Below are positions 5,033-15,104 of a stretch of 48,586 nucleotides of DNA, in pieces. A program made the translations under genes and the position numbers. The stretch spans positions 1 to 48,586 of the forward strand of contig RGZI01000004.1 of the NCBI GenBank assembly GCA_010031635.1. The letters run 5' to 3'. How positions within the stretch are numbered: the first letter of the stretch is position 1; every line of letters begins with the position of its first letter. The notes beneath the pieces were generated by a model. It was not told the origin of the DNA and ran no database searches. It saw nothing but the letters and a program-made list of their open reading frames with translations. This DNA comes from Actinomycetota bacterium (GTDB lineage: Bacteria > Actinomycetota > Actinomycetes > Nanopelagicales > Nanopelagicaceae).

Positions 5033-5716
5033 TTACTTTATGCCAGCTGCGACTAATAATTTCATAAACTCTGGAGCAGAATAGTAAGCACCGCTAGCGC
5101 GATCAACTTCTTTTCCATTTATAAAAACTGTTGGAGTGGAATTTATATTTTGTTTTGAACCTTCGCTACCAACATTTCCAACCCAGCCGGCATACTTGCC
5201 TTTATTTACACATGCTTCAAATTCTGGACCTGTGACACCTGCTGCAGCTGCAGTGGCGATAACACCTTCATTGCTCCAGGCTCCAGAATTTTCAGCTGGT
5301 TGATTTTTATACATTAATGCGTGGTACTCAAGGAATTTCCCTTGGTCCGCAGCACACGCTGCCCCATTCGCTGCGTAAACTGATTCTGGACCTAAAAATG
5401 AAAGTGGATGGAAAACAATTTTTGCTTTCTTCTCGACAACAAGAGCCCTTAATGCGTCACCATTTGTTCCCTCAAATGCTTTGCAACTTGGGCATTGAAA
5501 ATCTTCCCAGATATCAATTACAGGTTTTAAGTCTCCATTAAAAACAATTCCATAGCCATCTTTTACTGAGGCGGCAGTTGGAAGTACTGCTGTTTTCTTG
5601 CTCGTATTATTAAAGATAGAAATGCCTGCCCCTACGACAACAACTAACGCAACCATGCCAATAACTAACCATCTTGTTATTGGATCTCCTGAAGATTTGC
5701 CCTTGTTATCGACCAT
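5033..5716 (-). CDS. membrane-anchored DsbA-like thioredoxin-fold oxidoreductase
   Basis: Extracytoplasmic thiol-disulfide oxidoreductase, 227 aa. A single N-terminal anchor (about residues 15-34) is followed by a thioredoxin fold with CPSC at Cys75/Cys78 in the context EDFQCPSCKAFE. The cis-proline loop STPTVFINGKEV near the C terminus is typical of the DsbA/DSBA_2 group, and two further cysteines lie in the inserted helical domain. I chose ATG 5716 over the in-frame TTG at 5722 because a GGTAGGA Shine-Dalgarno lies 7 nt before the ATG. It sits 9 nt after the MauE-like gene, a plausible redox partner. Whether it oxidises or reduces its targets cannot be told from sequence. Confidence 0.92.
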   Translation of the reverse strand: MVDNKGKSSGDPITRWLVIGMVALVVVVGAGISIFNNTSKKTAVLPTAASVKDGYGIVFNGDLKPVIDIWEDFQCPSCKAFEGTNGDALRALVVEKKAKIVFHPLSFLGPESVYAANGAACAADQGKFLEYHALMYKNQPAENSGAWSNEGVIATAAAAGVTGPEFEACVNKGKYAGWVGNVGSEGSKQNINSTPTVFINGKEVDRASGAYYSAPEFMKLLVAAGIK

Positions 5717-5725
5717 TCTCAAATC

Positions 5726-6202
5726 CTACCTTGACCCCGCCTCTAAAGCCCACTTGGTATGTGGTCGCCAATATAAATAAACCGCCAAAAGGGTAAGTCC
5801 GAAATCACGTAATATTTCTTGCAAATACTTAGTTTCTCCGGGGGCTACCTGACCGCCGCCGCCAAAACATCCACAATCAATAGACAAGCCACGCGCCCAG
5901 GCTGAAGAGATCGCCAAAATAAAAATAAACATTAGCGATCCTGCAAAAAAAGCTGATAGCCGAGTTGCGACTCCTAAAATTAATAACGCTCCCAAACCTA
6001 CTTCAAACCATGGAAGTGCGTATCCAAATAGATTTGCAACACTAATAGGCAAAAGTTCATATGCCCGCATGGCAGCAGCGGCTTTATAAGGGCTGGTGAC
6101 CTTTAATGCACCGGCGACAAGAATGACACCGCCAAGAGTTAAACGAACTAATAATCCAAACCAATTGAGTCGGGTCGGTGTAATAAACCTTGCTAGATTC
6201 AT
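5726..6202 (-). CDS. MauE/DoxX-like redox-associated membrane protein
   Basis: Four-helix integral membrane protein of 158 aa in the MauE/DoxX superfamily. Visible features are the GGVILVAGALKV helix near residue 24, an ALPWFEVGLGALLILG helix near residue 62, and the paired cysteines Cys110/Cys112 in the IDCGCFGGGG motif typical of MauE-like proteins. Family members are thought to pass reducing equivalents to, or re-oxidise, periplasmic thioredoxin-like proteins; the adjacent DsbA-like gene supports that (inference). ATG 6202 overlaps the trpA stop by 4 nt, so it is translationally coupled to the trp operon although functionally unrelated. Confidence 0.88.
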   Translation of the reverse strand: MNLARFITPTRLNWFGLLVRLTLGGVILVAGALKVTSPYKAAAAMRAYELLPISVANLFGYALPWFEVGLGALLILGVATRLSAFFAGSLMFIFILAISSAWARGLSIDCGCFGGGGQVAPGETKYLQEILRDFGLTLLAVYLYWRPHTKWALEAGSR

Positions 6203-6999
6203 CGCGCTTGTCTTATTCCATCAGCCAAACTTTTCGTCAAAGTGGCTAATTCTTCCAAGCCTTTTTCAAAATCTGAATTTTCAAGTAGAACTTTAATTAA
6301 AGCTGATCCAACTATTACCCCATCAGCATAAGTTGCGACTTCTTTTGCTTGCTCTGGAGTCGAAACACCCAAACCAACGCACACCGGAGTTTGTACCGAT
6401 TTGCGAATCCGCGCGACTAATTCTTTTGCCGATGATGAAACACTCGTTCTGGTCCCAGTTACTCCCATTAAACTTGCTGCATAAACAAATCCAGAACATG
6501 CTGAAGCAACTTGGCTTAACCGTTCAGGCACTGAACTCGGTGCAGCAACAAAAATGTTATTGATGCCGGCTCGATCACTTTCTCTGATCCAAGGATTGGC
6601 TTCTTCGAGAGAAAGATCTGGTGTAATGACGCCAGAACCATTGGCAGATTTAATCGCATCTGCAAATTTAGAAATTCCATATTGTTCAATTGGATTCCAG
6701 TAAGTCATCACAACAGCAGGAACTTTTAAATTCGTTGTGAATCCTAAAATTTCTAGAACTTCGCTGGCACCTGTACCGTTTGCCAACGCTATATCTGCCG
6801 CTTCTTGAATAATCGGACCGTCCATTATTGGGTCGCTGTAAGGAAAGCCGATTTCAACAATATCGACGCCATTTTTTACTAATACTTCAATTGCTGCCTT
6901 GCTTTTTTCTACGGTAGGAAATCCAGCTGGAAGGTAAGCAATAAATGCAGCTCTATTTTCGCTTTTTAACTCTGCAAGCCGTTCTGCTAGATGGGTCAT
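6199..6999 (-). CDS. trpA: tryptophan synthase alpha chain
   Basis: Alpha subunit of tryptophan synthase, cleaving indole-3-glycerol phosphate to indole and glyceraldehyde 3-phosphate; indole is channelled to TrpB. It is a 266-aa TIM barrel with AYLPAGFPT near residue 18 and the signature VEIGFPYSDPIMDGP, which carries the catalytic Glu and Asp. The phosphate-binding loops GLGVSTPEQA and DGVIVGSALIK lie near the C terminus. Its ATG overlaps the trpB stop by one base (TAATG), giving tight coupling and equal stoichiometry with TrpB. Length and motifs are normal. Confidence 0.98.
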   Translation of the reverse strand: MTHLAERLAELKSENRAAFIAYLPAGFPTVEKSKAAIEVLVKNGVDIVEIGFPYSDPIMDGPIIQEAADIALANGTGASEVLEILGFTTNLKVPAVVMTYWNPIEQYGISKFADAIKSANGSGVITPDLSLEEANPWIRESDRAGINNIFVAAPSSVPERLSQVASACSGFVYAASLMGVTGTRTSVSSSAKELVARIRKSVQTPVCVGLGVSTPEQAKEVATYADGVIVGSALIKVLLENSDFEKGLEELATLTKSLADGIRQAR

Positions 7000-8228
7000 T
7001 ACGATTTCAAATCTGCAAAATAATTAGCTGCAGTCTCAACATCCTTATCACCACGTCCACTTAAATTTATTAATAGGGTCGCATTTGGGCCTAACTCATT
7101 ACCAACTTTCATTGCACCCGCTAAAGCATGTGCGGTTTCAATCGCTGGAATAATTCCCTCAGTTCGAGAAAGAAGCGAGAACGCCTCCATCGCTTCTTTA
7201 TCGGTAATTGGGCGATACTCCGCTCTCCCGATGTCATGTAAGTATGAATGCTCTGGACCTACACCCGGATAATCAAGGCCGGCTGAAATTGAATGAGATT
7301 CACGGGTTTGTCCATCTTTATCTTGAAGCATGTAAGAACGTGCGCCATGTAATACGCCAGGTCTGCCACCGCTAATCGCACTTGCATGACGGCCGGTCTC
7401 AATTCCATCGCCACCTGCTTCAAGCCCAATTAACCTGACGGATGTATCTTCAATGAATGGGAAAAATATTCCAATTGCATTTGAGCCACCGCCCACACAA
7501 GCAAGTACTGCATCTGGAAGTTTTCCGGTTAGTTCAAGTACCTGAGCCCTCGCTTCATCACCGATGATTCGGTGGAAATCTCGAACCATGGTTGGAAACG
7601 GATGTGGTCCCGCAACTGTTCCTAAAATGTAATGCGTATCTGCAACATTTGTTACCCAATCCCGCATCGCTTCATTTATTGCATCCTTTAGCGTGCGTGA
7701 ACCTGAAGTAACAGGCACTACTTCTGCTCCTAGCAATCTCATTCGGGCAACATTTAAAGATTGACGCTTGGTGTCTTCTTCACCCATGTAAACAACACAA
7801 TCAAGACCCATAAGTGCAGCCGCCGTTGCAGTTGCAACTCCATGCTGCCCCGCACCAGTTTCTGCGATAACGCGACTCTTACCCATTCGTTTAGTTAAAA
7901 GAGCCTGACCTAACACATTATTTATTTTGTGTGAACCGGTGTGATTTAAATCTTCTCTTTTTAAAATAATCCTTGCCCCACCGGCATAGCAAGCGAATCT
8001 TTTTGCTTCCGTGATGATGCTTGGCCTACCTGAATAAGTACGGTGCAGCTCATCTAGTTCAGCTATGAATGTTGGATCAGATTGGGTTTGGATATGCATT
8101 TTTGCAAGGTCATCAAGCGCTGCAACTAAAGCTTCCGGTACAAACCGGCCGCCATATTCGCCAAAATGACCTGTTGCGAAGACAGGCTTCTCCCCAGTTA
8201 AGTTGGCGGTATCGGCTGTAGTAGTCAT
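6999..8228 (-). CDS. trpB: tryptophan synthase beta chain
   Basis: PLP-dependent beta subunit that condenses indole with serine to give tryptophan. 409 aa, normal length for TrpB1. The N-terminal [13 protein letters not shown] matches the family, and the Schiff-base lysine is Lys101 in [11 protein letters not shown]. The PLP phosphate loop GGGSNAIG and the substrate-loop glutamate in [10 protein letters not shown] are intact. It starts two bases downstream of the trpC stop region, so trpC-trpB-trpA form one coupled unit. Confidence 0.98.
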
Positions 8229-8230
8229 GG

Positions 8231-9034
8231 CTATACCTTAGAGATATTCGGGGTATCGGCGCGATTTATAAAATCTCGGATCATCTGGGCTGGGTCTCCA
8301 TCTTTAACAAGGGCTTCTCCCACCAAGATCGCCTCGGCGCCACTTTTGCGATAGGAAATTACATCAGCTAGCGAACTTATTCCTGATTCGGCTACTTTTA
8401 CTACTCCTTCAGGGATCGCCAAGGCTAATTTATCAAAGGCGCCTAGATCTATTTTTAAAGTGGTTAAATCACGAGCATTTACCCCAATGATTTCTGGGTC
8501 AAGGGATAACGCCCTTTCTACCTCTTCAAGAGTGTGAGTTTCAACTAACACTTGCATTCCAAGTGATTTTGAAATTGCGAAGAATTCACTGAGTTGCAGA
8601 TCAGATAATGCTGCAACGATCAACAAAATAATATCGGCACCATAAGCCCTTGCTTCAAATATTTGATATTCATCAACCGTAAAATCTTTACGTAAAATTG
8701 GAATATTGATTGCTGATCTAACGGCTGCTAAATCTGCAAGTGAGCCACCGAATTTGCGGCTTTCAGTCAAGACACTCACCGCAGTAGCTCCACCTGTTTG
8801 ATAGCTAAGTGCTAGAGCTGCAGGATCCGATATTTGCGCAAGTGCGCCTTTACTTGGAGATGATCGCTTTACTTCGGCAATCACAGATAAGTTAGAACTT
8901 TGAAGTGATGGAAGTACATCTATTACTGGATTGACCTCAGATATCTTTGCAACTAATTCATTTAATTCAACTAACTTTTTACGTTCTGCTAAATCTTCTC
9001 TTACACCTTGGATTATTTGGTCTAGGACGTTCAA
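8231..9034 (-). CDS. trpC: indole-3-glycerol phosphate synthase
   Basis: Closes the indole ring, converting carboxyphenylamino-deoxyribulose phosphate to indole-3-glycerol phosphate. Monofunctional TIM barrel of 267 aa. Motifs are [13 protein letters not shown] (catalytic Glu and Lys), ILRKDF, GVNARDL and VAESGI. I chose the TTG at 9034, giving a protein that begins [18 protein letters not shown] as TrpC proteins usually do. An in-frame ATG at 9061 would add nine residues and overlap the previous gene by 23 nt. TTG lies 4 nt after that stop. No TrpF domain is fused; PriA, encoded upstream, probably supplies the TrpF activity. Confidence 0.95.
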
Positions 9035-9038
9035 AATT

Positions 9039-9236
9039 TTACCGTTTAGCTTTCTGACCATATCCCAGTTGACGAAGAACTAAGCCGACAAAAGGGGATG
9101 CAACGGTCACAATAATTCCAATAATTGCAACATTTACATCTGCTACAACAAAAGCCACGCTTGCCACAGTTGAGCCGAGGATTGCCAAAATAGTTGTCAC
9201 CCAGGCAGCGACTGTATGACCATGATTGTTATCCAT
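9039..9236 (-). CDS. HGxxPAAW-type small membrane protein of the trp region
   Basis: Small protein of 65 aa with two hydrophobic helices (about residues 12-30 and 34-54) and a positively charged tail (YGQKAKR). The N-terminal HGHTVAAW matches the HGxxPAAW motif of a family found almost exclusively beside actinobacterial trp genes, with Val replacing the usual Pro. Function is unknown; a role linked to tryptophan or an intermediate is only suggested by location. A strong Shine-Dalgarno, AGAAGGAG, lies 4 nt before the ATG, stronger than most in this operon. It lies between the 43-aa ORF and trpC. Confidence 0.85.
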   Translation of the reverse strand: MDNNHGHTVAAWVTTILAILGSTVASVAFVVADVNVAIIGIIVTVASPFVGLVLRQLGYGQKAKR

Positions 9237-9293
9237 TTGGCTCCTTCTGCTTACTCAGTTGCGGCTCGGTAACTTGGCTGCCTTGGCTTAATT

Positions 9294-9425
9294 CTAGAGG
9301 GTTGGATCCACCCCTTTATCCAAAGCGCGCCAAGGGTCTTGAACGGAGCGCTCGTATTTAGCCGGAAGCTTTTTTGAACCACTTTTACGCAGAAATCTGA
9401 AAAAACCTTTGAAAAAGGATCGCAT
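9294..9425 (-). CDS. 43-aa ORF resembling only the C-terminal tail of the Trp-region membrane protein
   Basis: Minus-strand ORF I translated by hand, 43 codons from ATG 9425 to TAG 9294, filling the otherwise empty gap between trpE and the HGxxPAAW gene. The N-terminal half is basic and aromatic (MRSFFKGFFRFLRKSGSKK) and the C-terminal half reads DPWRALDKGVDPTL. From memory, the Trp-region conserved membrane protein (TIGR02234-like) found at exactly this position in other Actinobacteria ends with a similar W-ALD-G-DPT tail. Here the membrane domain would be gone and only the tail kept. The Shine-Dalgarno is weak (GAAAG, 2 nt before ATG). It may be a real micro-gene or an eroding remnant. Confidence 0.55.
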   Translation of the reverse strand: MRSFFKGFFRFLRKSGSKKLPAKYERSVQDPWRALDKGVDPTL

Positions 9426-9444
9426 CGCTTTCAATTTATTCAAT

Positions 9445-10926
9445 TTATATAACTAAATTCTTTGCAGCAGCAATAGCGCCCAATACAGCCGCAGCCTTAC
9501 TCAAACACTCATTATCTTCACTTTCTGGAATTGAATCTGCCACAATTCCAGCACCTGCTTGTACATATGCAATTCCATCTCTGATAAGTGCGGTGCGAAT
9601 TGCGATTGCGGTATCAAGATTGCCGTTGAAGTCAAAGTAACCGATGCATCCGCCATACAAACCCCGCCTAGTAGGTTCTAATTTTTCAATAATTTCCATA
9701 GCGCGGGGTTTCGGAGCGCCTGACAAAGTTCCCGCTGGAAATACCGCTGCAAGGGCGTCAACTACAGATATCTCATTATTTAATTCGCCAGTTACTGTTG
9801 AAACAATGTGCATGACATGCGAATAACGTTCGACATTCATGAATTCAATTACCTCTACAGAGCCGGCTTTGCATACGCGGCCTAAATCATTGCGTCCTAA
9901 ATCGACCAGCATTAAATGTTCGGCACGTTCTTTAGGGTCCGCGATCAACTCATTACCAATTTCGATATCTTCTTCCGCCGTAATGCCTCTGTGTCTAGTG
10001 CCGGCAATTGGATGAATCATGGCTTTACGATCTGAGATTTTTATCAAAGCCTCTGGACTTGAACCGACGATATCTACACCATCATGAAATCTGATCAGGT
10101 ACATATATGGACTTGGATTATGCAAACGCAACATTCGATAAACATCAATCGAACTTGCCTCGCAAGGGGTGGAAAAACGTTGCGAAAGCACGACTTGGAA
10201 TGCTTCACCAGATCTGATTTCTTCTTTTATTAACTCTACATTTTTTCTAAAATCTGCTGATGATGTGGCGCGAGTAAAATCAGCCTTACTTTTTTCACCG
10301 ACAACGTCTACTTGTCCTGCCAATGGCGCCAAAAGATCTTCATGCATTTTCTCAATGCGCTCTACTGCATTTTCCCAAGCTTGATCAACTCGTTCACTCG
10401 TACCATCCCAATTAATAGCATTTGCAACAAGTAAGACTGTTCCATCAGAATGGTCAAATACCGCTAAATCGGAAATTAATTGGAAAGCCATCTCTGGAAG
10501 ATGAAGATCATCTTTGGCTAAATTCGGTAACTTCTCCATCCTTCTGACCGCGTCATAACCAAGGTAACCAACTAATCCACTCGCCAGCGGAGGCAGTCCA
10601 GAAATCTCCGCACTTTTTAGATGAGAAGTTGTGATCCGCAATGCCTCTAGCGGATCTATACCTTCTGGTGCACCGGCAGGTTTGCTTCCTTTCCATACTG
10701 CTAATCCGTGTTCTTCAGTTAGCGTTGCTTGACTATTAACGCCAATGAATGAATATCTTGACCAAATCTTTCCATTCTCAGCAGATTCAAGTAAAAAAGT
10801 GCCAGGCCGTTCTTGAGCTAACTTCCGATATAAAGATAACGCTGTTTCGCCATCGGCTAAAAGTTTGCGCGTTACTGGAATAACATTATTTTTTTTAGCA
10901 AGTTCACGAAACTCTTCTACTCTCAT
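9445..10926 (-). CDS. trpE: anthranilate synthase component I
   Basis: Converts chorismate plus ammonia to anthranilate, the first step of tryptophan synthesis; the glutamine amidotransferase partner TrpG is not in this window. 493 aa. The N-terminal [18 protein letters not shown] carries the LLES element of the tryptophan feedback site, so the enzyme is probably Trp-inhibited. The chorismate-binding domain has [31 protein letters not shown] and [20 protein letters not shown] 10926 overlaps the hisI stop by 4 nt (ATGA), so trp genes are translated directly behind his genes. Confidence 0.97.
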
Positions 10927-11261
10927 TCTGAAATCTCAATCTCATTTGAGAAACATGAGTGGGTTCCGGTATGGCATGCGACGCCTTTTTGATGCACCCG
11001 AAGCAATATTGCATCGCCGTCACAATCTACTGATGCGGAAACAACTTCTTGCGTATTCCCAGATGTTGCGCCTTTAACCCATAATTCATTTCTACTTCTG
11101 CTCCAATAAGTTGCTTTGTGACTTTCTAATGTTTTTTCAAGAGCCTCACGATTCATCCATGCGAGCATCAAAACTTCATTGCTTTCATCCTCTTGAACTA
11201 CAACCGCCACAAGGCCATTTTCGCGATCAAGTAATTTCGCTAAATCAGCGGAGATTTTCAT
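10923..11261 (-). CDS. hisI: phosphoribosyl-AMP cyclohydrolase
   Basis: Opens the adenine ring of phosphoribosyl-AMP, the third step of histidine synthesis. 112 aa from the chosen start. Motifs are [28 protein letters not shown], the metal-binding SVDCDGDA and the zinc-site [10 protein letters not shown] chose ATG 11261 ([11 protein letters not shown]) because GGGGGAG lies 9 nt upstream and other actinobacterial HisI proteins begin here. An in-frame ATG at 11297 would add 12 residues with a poorly spaced AAGGG. There is no HisE fusion; hisE and hisG are elsewhere. Confidence 0.96.
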
Positions 11262-11304
11262 CTGGCTATTCTCCCCCATCTGAGGCCATTCCCGCATTTG
11301 CCCT

Positions 11305-12063
11305 TCATCGGATCAGATATCCAGCAGAGCGTAAGAAATCCTTGACCTGTGAAATCCGATAGACCCCAAAGTGAAAAACGCTCGCCGCCAGAAGTGCATC
11401 TGCACCAGCATCAATCGCCCGTGAAAAATCTTCAAGCGCGCCTGCGCCACCACTGGCAATCATTGGGGTGGAAATATGTGGTCGTAGAAGTTGGATCATC
11501 TCTAAGTCATAGCCCGCTCGCGTGCCATCAGCATCCATTGAGTTAAGTAAAATTTCTCCTACGCCCAAATCGCAAGCTTGCTTAACCCATTCAATTGCGT
11601 CAATCCCGGTGCCCCGTGTTCCTCCGTGAGTTGTAAGTTCAAAACTGCTTGCAGTTGCACCTCGTCTTGCATCTACTGATAAAACTAATACTTGAGCTCC
11701 AAAATGTTGATTAATCTCACTTAACAGTTCAGGTCTTTCAATAGCTGCGGTGTTAACTGAAATTTTATCTGCACCGGCTCTCAACAATTTATCAACATCA
11801 GCCACTGTGCGTACCCCGCCACCAACAGTTAATGGGATAAAAACTTGTTCAGCAGTACGACCAACAACATCATAAGTGGTCTGCCGATTGCCGGTACTTG
11901 CACTGATCTCAAGAAAAGTTAATTCATCTGCACCTTCGAGATCGTAAACCCGAGCCATCTCAACTGGATCCCCGGCATCTTTCAGGTTTGTAAAATTAAT
12001 ACCCTTTACAACTCTTCCTTCAGTCACATCTAAACACGGAATAATTCTGATCGAAGGATTCAC
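11305..12063 (-). CDS. hisF: imidazole glycerol phosphate synthase, cyclase subunit
   Basis: Cyclase half of IGP synthase; it uses ammonia from HisH to form imidazole glycerol phosphate and AICAR. 252-aa TIM barrel with catalytic Asp12 in [16 protein letters not shown] and Asp131 in VLSVDARRG, plus phosphate-site loops TVGGGVRT and IASGGAGA. The start is GTG at 12063, overlapping the priA stop by one base (TAGTG). Its partner hisH lies just beyond priA in the same operon. Confidence 0.98.
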
Positions 12064-12785
12064 TATTGACTAACTTTCGCTAACGCTTCACCCAGAGTAA
12101 ATGCACCTGCGTATAGGGCCTTACCAACGATTGCTCCTTCGACTCCTATTGTCGTTAATTCTCGAAGTGCTTCAAGGTCAGCAAGTGATGAGACTCCACC
12201 ACTTGCAATAATGGGACGATCAGTCACCGCTGCAACTTCTCTTAATAATTTGATATTTGGCCCCATCAATGTTCCATCTTTCGCTACGTCAGTTAACACA
12301 TAACGTGCACAACCATCACGATCTAATCTTTCAATCGTTTCGAAAAGATTTCCACCTTCAGTAGTCCATCCACGTGCAGCAAGAGTGTGTCCACGAACAT
12401 CAAGTCCTATCGCAATCCTCTCGCCATATTTAGCAATTACTTGCGCAGTCCAATCCGGATTCTCTAGCGCTGCAGTGCCAAGGTTTATCCGAGCACATCC
12501 AGTTGCCAATGCCCGTTCAAGGGATTCGTCGTCGCGAATTCCACCAGAGAGCTCAACTTTCACATCTAGCACGCCAACAACCTCAGCCAGAAGCGCGGCG
12601 TTACTACCAATTCCGAAAGCGGCATCAAGATCTACAAGGTGGATCCATTCCGCGCCAGCGTTTTGAAAATCTAATGCTGCATCTAGTGGGTTTCCATACT
12701 TTGTTTCATTTTCAAGGGCTCCTTGCACCAAGCGAACTGCTTGGCCATCTTTAACATCAACAGCAGGTAAAAGAATTAAGCGCAT
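12063..12785 (-). CDS. priA: bifunctional HisA/TrpF isomerase PriA
   Basis: Actinobacterial PriA catalyses both the HisA step (ProFAR isomerisation) and the TrpF step (phosphoribosyl anthranilate isomerisation), which explains the absence of trpF between trpE and trpA. 240 aa. The sequence follows mycobacterial PriA closely: LILLPAVDV with Asp10, [37 protein letters not shown] (Asp129), the ARGW arginine loop and LTDVAKDGT (Asp166). I chose ATG 12785 rather than the TTG at 12797; the ATG overlaps hisH by 10 nt and gives the usual N terminus. Dual activity is inferred from similarity and context. Confidence 0.95.
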
Positions 12786-13399
12786 TTTGCTAACCAATTT
12801 TCGATCAATTTAGCACCGGCATCTCCAGATTTTTCAGGATGGAATTGCGTAGCACTAAGCGGACCATTTTCAACAGCAGCAATAAATTTTCCACCGTAAT
12901 TGCTCCAACTTACTTTCGCTTTTTTCAATGGTGAGTGCGGATCTTCTTCCCAGTTTTGTGATGCAAAAGAGTGCACAAAATAAAATCTTTCTTTTTCTAC
13001 GCCAGCAAATAGTGCGCTTTCTGGTGCGACGTCAATCAAATTCCAACCCATATGTGGAAGTTTTGGATCTTGCAATTTAGTAACGGTCCCATTCCATTGC
13101 CCTAATCCTGGAGTTACTACGTCGTGCTCATCACCAAATGAAAAAAGAGTTTGTGCGCCTACGCAAATACCCAATGTTTGTAAATTCTTAGTCATCCGAG
13201 CATCGATAATTGCATCTGCTCGATGCTTGAGTAGACCTTCCATACAAGTTGCGAAAGCGCCAACCCCTGGAATGACTAAGCCGTCAGCATTAATGCATTT
13301 TTGAAAATCATTGGTGACTTCAACTTGAGCACCATGCCTTGAAAAAGCCCGCTGAGCAGATTTAATATTTCCAGAACCATAATCCAAAATTGCTATCAA
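12776..13399 (-). CDS. hisH: imidazole glycerol phosphate synthase, glutaminase subunit
   Basis: Class I glutamine amidotransferase that feeds ammonia to HisF. 207 aa. Catalytic Cys79 lies in [11 protein letters not shown] (more often GICLGMQ), with the oxyanion region IPGVGAF at about residues 43-49 and the His-Glu pair in [12 protein letters not shown] near the C terminus. Its 3' end contains the priA start codon. ATG 13399 overlaps the hisB stop by 4 nt. The Val-Ala substitution next to the nucleophile is mild and should not abolish activity. Confidence 0.97.
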
Positions 13400-13980
13400 A
13401 GAACGCCCTTGGTTGAGGGAACTCCAGCTACGCCATCAAGTCTGACCGCATCGCGCAATGCACGCGCAACCGCTTTGAATTGTGCTTCCATTACGTGATG
13501 GGCATTTCGTCCTTCTAAGACGCGGATATGTAAAGCGATGTGAGCTTCGGCAACCAATGACTCCCAAATATGACGCGTCAAAGTGGTGTCGTAAGTTCCA
13601 ATCAATTCAACTATTTCAGGTTGACGGTGGACTAAGTAGGGCCTTCCAGAAAGGTCAACTGCAGCGGTAACCAGAACTTCATCTAGCGGGACTGTTGCAT
13701 CACCAAACCTCCTGATGCCAACTTTGTCGCCGAGTGCTTCACGCAACGCTTGTCCAAGTGCCAAAGATGTATCTTCTACGGTGTGATGTGAATCAACTTC
13801 AACATCGCCTTTGGTAATTACTTTCAAGTCAAAGCCACCATGCTTACCTAATTGATTTAGCATGTGATCGAAAAAGGGAACTCCAGTTTCTATCTCAATT
13901 ACACCAGTGCCATCCAACTCCAATTCAACATGAACTGAAGATTCTTTTGTGGCCCGTTTTACGATCGCTTTGCGGCTCAT
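13396..13980 (-). CDS. hisB: imidazoleglycerol-phosphate dehydratase
   Basis: Mn-dependent dehydration of imidazole glycerol phosphate to imidazole acetol phosphate. 194 aa, the monofunctional form without an N-terminal HAD phosphatase domain, so histidinol phosphatase must be encoded elsewhere. The duplicated metal-binding motifs [14 protein letters not shown] and [14 protein letters not shown] are intact, as is [18 protein letters not shown]. Overlaps hisC and hisH by 4 nt each. Confidence 0.98.
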
Positions 13981-15104
13981 TTTTCCCCTTTCAATACTCT
14001 AAGAATCTCACGAAGTGCTGCTAAGAAGCGGTCATTTTCACTTGGAGTTCCGATAGTTACCCGTAGGTGTCCCGCGATCCCTACGTCCCGGACCAACACC
14101 CCAACCTTTACCAACTCTTGCCAAACCTGCTTCTCGTTATCGATCGAAAAAAGCAAGAAATTAGCAGAGCTGGGAACAACTGTTAATCCAAGATTCTGCA
14201 ACTCCGCCACCACTTTATTCCGCTCAATTTTGAGTTGCTCAACTTCAGCTAGTAATTCACTTTGAAATTCAAGTGCCACTTTGGCTAGAAGTTGGGTTGG
14301 AGTGCTCAAGTGATAAGGCAAACGTACTAATTGAAGTGCGTCAACAACTTCTTTACCAGCGGCCAAATACCCCACCCTCACACCTGCGAATGAAAATGCC
14401 TTACTCATCGTACGAATTACCACTAAATTCAAATACTTACTTAAAAGTTCAATAGTTGAAGGCTGCTCTGAGAACTCTGCATACGCTTCATCAATTATCG
14501 TCAGTCCTCCGACTTGCGCAGTCGCCTCAATAATTTTGCGGATATCAGAAATTGCCGTACTGGTTCCAGTTGGATTATTTGGTGTAGTTATAAAAACTAA
14601 TTTAGGTTTTTGAGTTGAAATCTCTTTTAGTGCAGATGAAAGATCTATACTAAAATTACTTAAACGCTCTCCAGTGATCCAATTTGTTCCGGTGCTTCTG
14701 GCGATATTTTCATGCATTGAATATGAAGGTGTGAAACCAAGAGAATTTACACCTGCTCCAGCAAATGCCAAGAAAAGGGTTTGGATAATTTCATTACTTC
14801 CGTTTGCAGCCCAGATTTGATCGACACTTAAATTGACGCCAGTGGTCGAACTTAAATACTTCGCTAACTCTGATCTCAGTTCAATTGCATCTCTATCGGG
14901 ATATCTATTAAAATCTTTTGCAGAATTAGCTATCGCCTCTGAAAGTTTTTTTACTAAGGCCGGTGATAAAGAAAATGGATTCTCATTTGTATTTAACTTA
15001 ACTTCTAGCGGCAGCTGCGGAGCTCCGTATGGTGATTGATCCTTTAGATCTTCGCGTAATGGCAACCAGTTCGGCCAATCTAGGGGGGAATCGTAATTAC
15101 TCAT
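13977..15104 (-). CDS. hisC: histidinol-phosphate aminotransferase
   Basis: PLP-dependent fold-type I aminotransferase converting imidazole acetol phosphate to histidinol phosphate. 375 aa. The PLP lysine is Lys235 in [16 protein letters not shown]. Other family features are KLNTNENPF near residue 36, ANGSNEII (99-106), TTPNNPTG (173-180) and the aspartate in IIDEAYAEF (203-211). ATG 15104 overlaps the hisD stop by 4 nt. Normal length; no oddities. Confidence 0.97.

Follow-up and report, generated by a model that had tools for sequence, protein, structure and literature searches.

Does a frame of 43 codons lying between trpE and the next gene encode a protein, and what would so short a protein do? 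The question is raised by a 48,586-nucleotide stretch of Nanopelagicaceae DNA (GenBank contig RGZI01000004.1; hereafter the window), where a sequence-only reading had placed such a frame between trpE and the HGxxPAAW gene. PF09534 (Trp_oprn_chp)/TIGR02234 is an uncharacterised four-helix membrane protein of the actinobacterial Trp region, and that reading took the frame for what is left of it. The placing was correct. The micro-ORF (MRSFFKGFFRFLRKSGSKKLPAKYERSVQDPWRALDKGVDPTL) is an exact ATG-to-stop frame at positions 9294-9425 of the minus strand, with trpE as its upstream neighbour (9445-10926) and, downstream, the gene of an HGxxPAAW/DUF6704 small membrane protein (9039-9236; NF041681, 53.3 bits, cut-off 33) and trpC (8231-9061), all on the minus strand. 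The window comes from a lake actinobacterium. Among the closest named records to its TrpE are a Lake Baikal MAG of Candidatus Nanopelagicaceae, at 97% identity, and three MAGs of actinobacteria at 95-98%.

The start codon of the micro-ORF is uncertain, giving a product of 43, 46 or 49 aa. The ATG at 9423-9425 is common to three of the five genomes of the genus; the TTG at 9432-9434 (frame 9294-9434, minus strand, 46 aa) is the sole start codon common to all five, and a further in-frame TTG lies at 9441-9443 (49 aa). The conserved TTG follows the trpE stop by 10 bases in the window and by one base in three other genomes of the genus, and the micro-ORF is probably translated by coupling with trpE. 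Relative to G001, G002 and G004, the window carries a 9-base insertion near the trpE stop (9432-9447), which separates the stop from this TTG. No promoter-like sites were found around the micro-ORF, a single terminator-like site near it was within chance expectation, and Rfam returned no RNA families from 8900 to 9700. For an ORF overlapping the micro-ORF (9251-9382, minus strand), no family match was found.

ORF length by itself was uninformative because 52 ORFs of at least 40 aa overlap positions 5500-15000 of the window. Conservation was decisive. The frame is intact, at 48-49 aa, in all four other genomes of the genus (E 1e-23 to 1e-29), and dN/dS in close relatives, the check named in the sequence-only reading, was 0.13 over the whole micro-ORF across the five genomes. 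The value was 0.195 for the 17-codon front half and 0.018 for the 30-codon second half, hereafter the tail, with one amino-acid difference and with 11 of the 12 variable columns at third codon positions; the neighbouring HGxxPAAW gene gave 0.094 for comparison. Amino-acid changes were so few in none of 10,000 random placements of an equal number of changes. The tail was matched in 157 of 201 genomes of the family and in 88 of the 99 near-complete ones. The micro-ORF is a real, conserved coding gene under purifying selection. Frames of its size are common in the window, as a chance open frame would require, but conservation at the protein level across the family refutes that explanation and leaves it practically no probability. 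It is also very improbable that the micro-ORF is a remnant undergoing decay, or that it serves only as a spacer for translational coupling of trpE to the next gene. Its shortness and its start just past the trpE stop would fit either, but the tail is highly constrained and has invariant residues, no broken frames were seen in relatives, the motif also occurs in the intact family, and in G053 the tail exists as a lone relocated gene beside a tRNA on a separate contig (L102:2953-3108, minus strand).

The tail (KYERSVQDPWRALDKGVDPT; 9300-9359, minus strand) has the pattern KYERS..DPWRALDKGVDPT, a case of the general motif R/K-Y-E/D-R ... W-x-x-L-x-x-G-x-D-P-T/S. It matched positions 163-180 of the 180 in Pfam PF09534 with E values of 0.01 (49-aa frame) and 0.008 (43-aa frame), scoring 16.4 bits against a cut-off of 29.6 and thus falling below the curated threshold. 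Among 50 family tails, 43 matched PF09534 (best E 7e-7), and only three reached TIGR02234, weakly; the micro-ORF itself matched neither TIGR02234 nor any other NCBIfam model, nor the HGxxPAAW/DUF6704 profile, which its neighbour at 9039-9236 does match, and a PDB sequence search found nothing. A profile-profile comparison of the 50 family tails with 23 full-length proteins was far stronger (hhalign 96.5%, E 8e-10). When a tail-only profile was run on proteins outside its building set, against 1,592 stop-to-stop frames drawn from 30 out-of-family genomes and from the full-length case within the family (G017), all 28 best matches were PF09534 proteins. The 50 family tails all have Y, W, D and P, with L and G at least 90% conserved; W, G, D and T are invariant in the same tail of the 23 aligned full-length proteins, whose tail feature, RY..p...W.ALDrGeDPT, is present in the micro-ORF. 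The table of tails was gathered with a motif regular expression and is no proof of the motif by itself; the searches that took the window ORF or the Pfam profile as query are independent of that expression. Judged by these comparisons, the micro-ORF tail and the C-terminal tail of PF09534/TIGR02234 are homologous, in line with the resemblance that the sequence-only reading had noted. By family thresholds the micro-ORF is not itself a PF09534/TIGR02234 protein, and it is a descendant retaining the family's tail and place.

The four transmembrane helices of the family are absent from the micro-ORF, where the maximum 19-residue hydropathy was -0.27 and no helix rose over the threshold. Its front half is instead a basic, Phe-rich amphipathic helix (residues 2-15; 9381-9422, minus strand), much as had been proposed from the sequence. 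The Fauchere-Pliska moment of this half is 0.66, a value reached by ~0.2% of 5,000 shuffles, and its net charge is +6. AlphaFold2 modelled the same residues as a helix and the remainder as coil (mean pLDDT 71). The helix is predicted to bind the membrane in place of a transmembrane helix, and MRSFFKGFFRFLRKSG is a candidate anchor peptide, a putative lipid-binding helix.

The sequence-only reading had the membrane part lost and the tail retained. This part of its account is supported, but the loss was not a single event; the micro-ORF stands at the end of a graded reduction across the family. PF09534 scored over the Pfam cut-off in 218 of the 247 near-complete Actinomycetes genomes sampled, and the 20 misses listed all belong to the family of the window. 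In about 130 genomes of this family, we read the interval between trpE and trpC or its counterpart. Other families have a full-length protein of about 180-250 aa, and Ca. Nanopelagicaceae has one such case, G017. Two-helix forms of about 85-98 aa occur in genera g6, g7, g10 and g11, and one-helix forms of 48-66 aa in g2, g3, g4, g5, g8, g12, g15 and g16, with a one-helix form fused to TrpC in g13; the window's genus (g1) has no transmembrane helix. The anchor was probably reduced repeatedly, since the TrpC tree requires at least six changes of anchor state (by a quick method, with many weak forks). The tail is absent from genera g17 and g9. The data are mostly MAGs, so that a missing gene may be a missing contig. 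Apparent tail loss in two further genomes was set aside as a probable assembly gap: in G034 the MauE match sits at a contig end, and in G014 the tail, MauE and DsbA are missing together. Positive charge is higher after the helix in all 87 one-helix forms (mean net +4.8 vs +0.2), and by the positive-inside rule this suggests that the tail lies in the cytoplasm.

What does the tail work with? The sequence-only reading had it binding a Trp enzyme, and trp genes accompany the tail gene in nearly all Actinomycetes examined; the tail adjoins trpE or trpC in most genomes, its start codon lying just past the trpE stop. Besides position, the sole point in favour of a tail that tethers TrpC or TrpE to the membrane is G016, where TrpC carries a one-helix tail protein as an in-frame N-terminal fusion (L116:150-1124, plus strand). 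This fusion comes from a single MAG, and co-directional neighbouring genes readily fuse. The wider survey does not support the claim of a Trp-enzyme partner. Five genomes that are 91-99% complete (G018, G028, G050, G110 and G116) have neither trpE (E<=1e-100) nor trpB (E<=1e-20) in genome-wide searches, on which their trp-less status rests, and all five keep the tail (E 1e-16 to 1e-21). The tail is under constraint in the trp-less genomes of g11, g15 and g2, with pN/pS of 0.05 in three g11 genomes, a small set, and of 0.11 in three g15 genomes, likewise a small set with synonymous sites near saturation. Conversely, trpE, trpC, trpB and trpA are consecutive without the tail in g17 (the whole run was read in two genomes), and no convincing tail was found elsewhere in the ten g17 genomes searched. 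The tail also leaves its usual place: trpE and trpC overlap with no tail between them in G029, G059, G140 and G209, where it lies on another contig (on the his-MauE side in G029), and G053, with its lone tail gene, has no trpB and carries the MauE-DsbA-lgt block after dnaE, with neither his nor trp genes intervening. Tethering of a tryptophan enzyme is thus unlikely. Since the tail persists in relatives without tryptophan genes, it is probably the working part of the protein, and its partner is probably something other than a Trp enzyme.

The gene order in most trp-less genomes, hisF/hisI - tail - MauE - DsbA - lgt (hisI - tail - DsbA in G116), points to another candidate set. Outside the family, full-length PF09534 genes were also seen right after hisI in clusters that no longer contain trpE (L238, L239 and L240, in G076, G085 and G096). 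The tail protein could act with the envelope genes downstream of trpA (MauE/DoxX-like, DsbA-like and Lgt), for instance as an accessory in assembly or redox reactions. The MauE/DoxX-like membrane protein, at 5726-6202 (minus strand) in the window, has its gene next to the tail ORF in most relatives without trp genes, and MauE is missing too from g17 and g9, the genera confirmed to have no tail (Fisher p 2e-4 over 99 near-complete genomes, uncorrected for relatedness). The MauE-like gene had no match in 82 of the 201 family genomes (including g17, g9, g7 and parts of g4 and g8), while the adjoining DsbA-like gene was found in 185. Its absence from 27 of the 88 near-complete tail-positive genomes weakens the case for MauE as an obligate partner, a simple deletion of the intervening trp genes explains the his - tail - MauE order, and the tail is predicted to be cytoplasmic, which DsbA is not. 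We consider joint action with these envelope genes rather improbable. HGxxPAAW was rejected as an obligate partner, being under the cut-off in most tail-positive Nanopelagicaceae genera.

Collectively, these results favour, with moderate confidence, the reading of the micro-ORF as a minimal PF09534/TIGR02234 descendant, a membrane-tethered cytoplasmic docking tail with a non-Trp partner. The cytoplasmic tail would be the working part, a short docking element for a cytosolic or membrane-peripheral partner, and the remainder of the protein would merely keep it at the inner membrane face. Most Actinomycetes would anchor this element with four helices and most Nanopelagicaceae with two or one; in the window's genus the basic amphipathic helix would do so. 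The partner would be distinct from the adjoining Trp enzymes, and the trp location an inherited position. We infer docking from the greater constraint on the tail than on the anchor, an anchor of four, two, one or no transmembrane helices, the cytoplasmic site and a low-confidence linker; the tail could have another activity. The linker appears in the AlphaFold2 model of a full-length PF09534 protein (L031; pLDDT 89), which is ordered TM1 - two strands - TM2 - TM3 - strand - TM4 and comprises a confident four-helix bundle, the low-confidence linker and a short helix covering the W-x-x-L-D motif. Such a linker and motif helix are as expected of a docking element. In Foldseek, claudins and TARPs made up nearly all of the best PDB matches to this model (probability up to 1.00, E 0.02, TM-score 0.47-0.53), suggesting that the actinobacterial PF09534 family may have a claudin-like fold.

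We put at even odds a broader proposition, that tryptophan is of little relevance to this "Trp-associated" family, which would instead provide nearly all actinobacteria with a membrane-anchored docking tail. On this view the streamlined Nanopelagicaceae form a natural deletion series, in which the (possibly claudin-like) four-helix domain proves dispensable and even replaceable by an amphipathic helix. The series confines the selected part to about 20 residues and eliminates the obvious guess at a partner. The micro-ORF matters because the family is so widespread, with Rv1610 in the corresponding place of the mycobacterial trp operon, while a literature search found nothing on the function of PF09534/TIGR02234.

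The micro-ORF is a new variant of a family already known but uncharacterised. With PF09534/TIGR02234 proteins it shares the position after trpE, the C-terminal tail motif and a tail that its charge predicts to be cytoplasmic, and the graded series, including the full-length copy in the same family, backs its descent from them. It differs from them in having no transmembrane helix or extracytoplasmic strands and in scoring under the Pfam cut-off. The HGxxPAAW/DUF6704 protein (NF041681, PF20447) resembles it as a small membrane protein of uncharacterised function in the same gap, but is unrelated in sequence. Closest are the one- and two-helix forms of other Nanopelagicaceae genera, mostly 48-98 aa long, which share both tail and locus; they keep one or two transmembrane helices, in place of which the window's genus has an amphipathic one.
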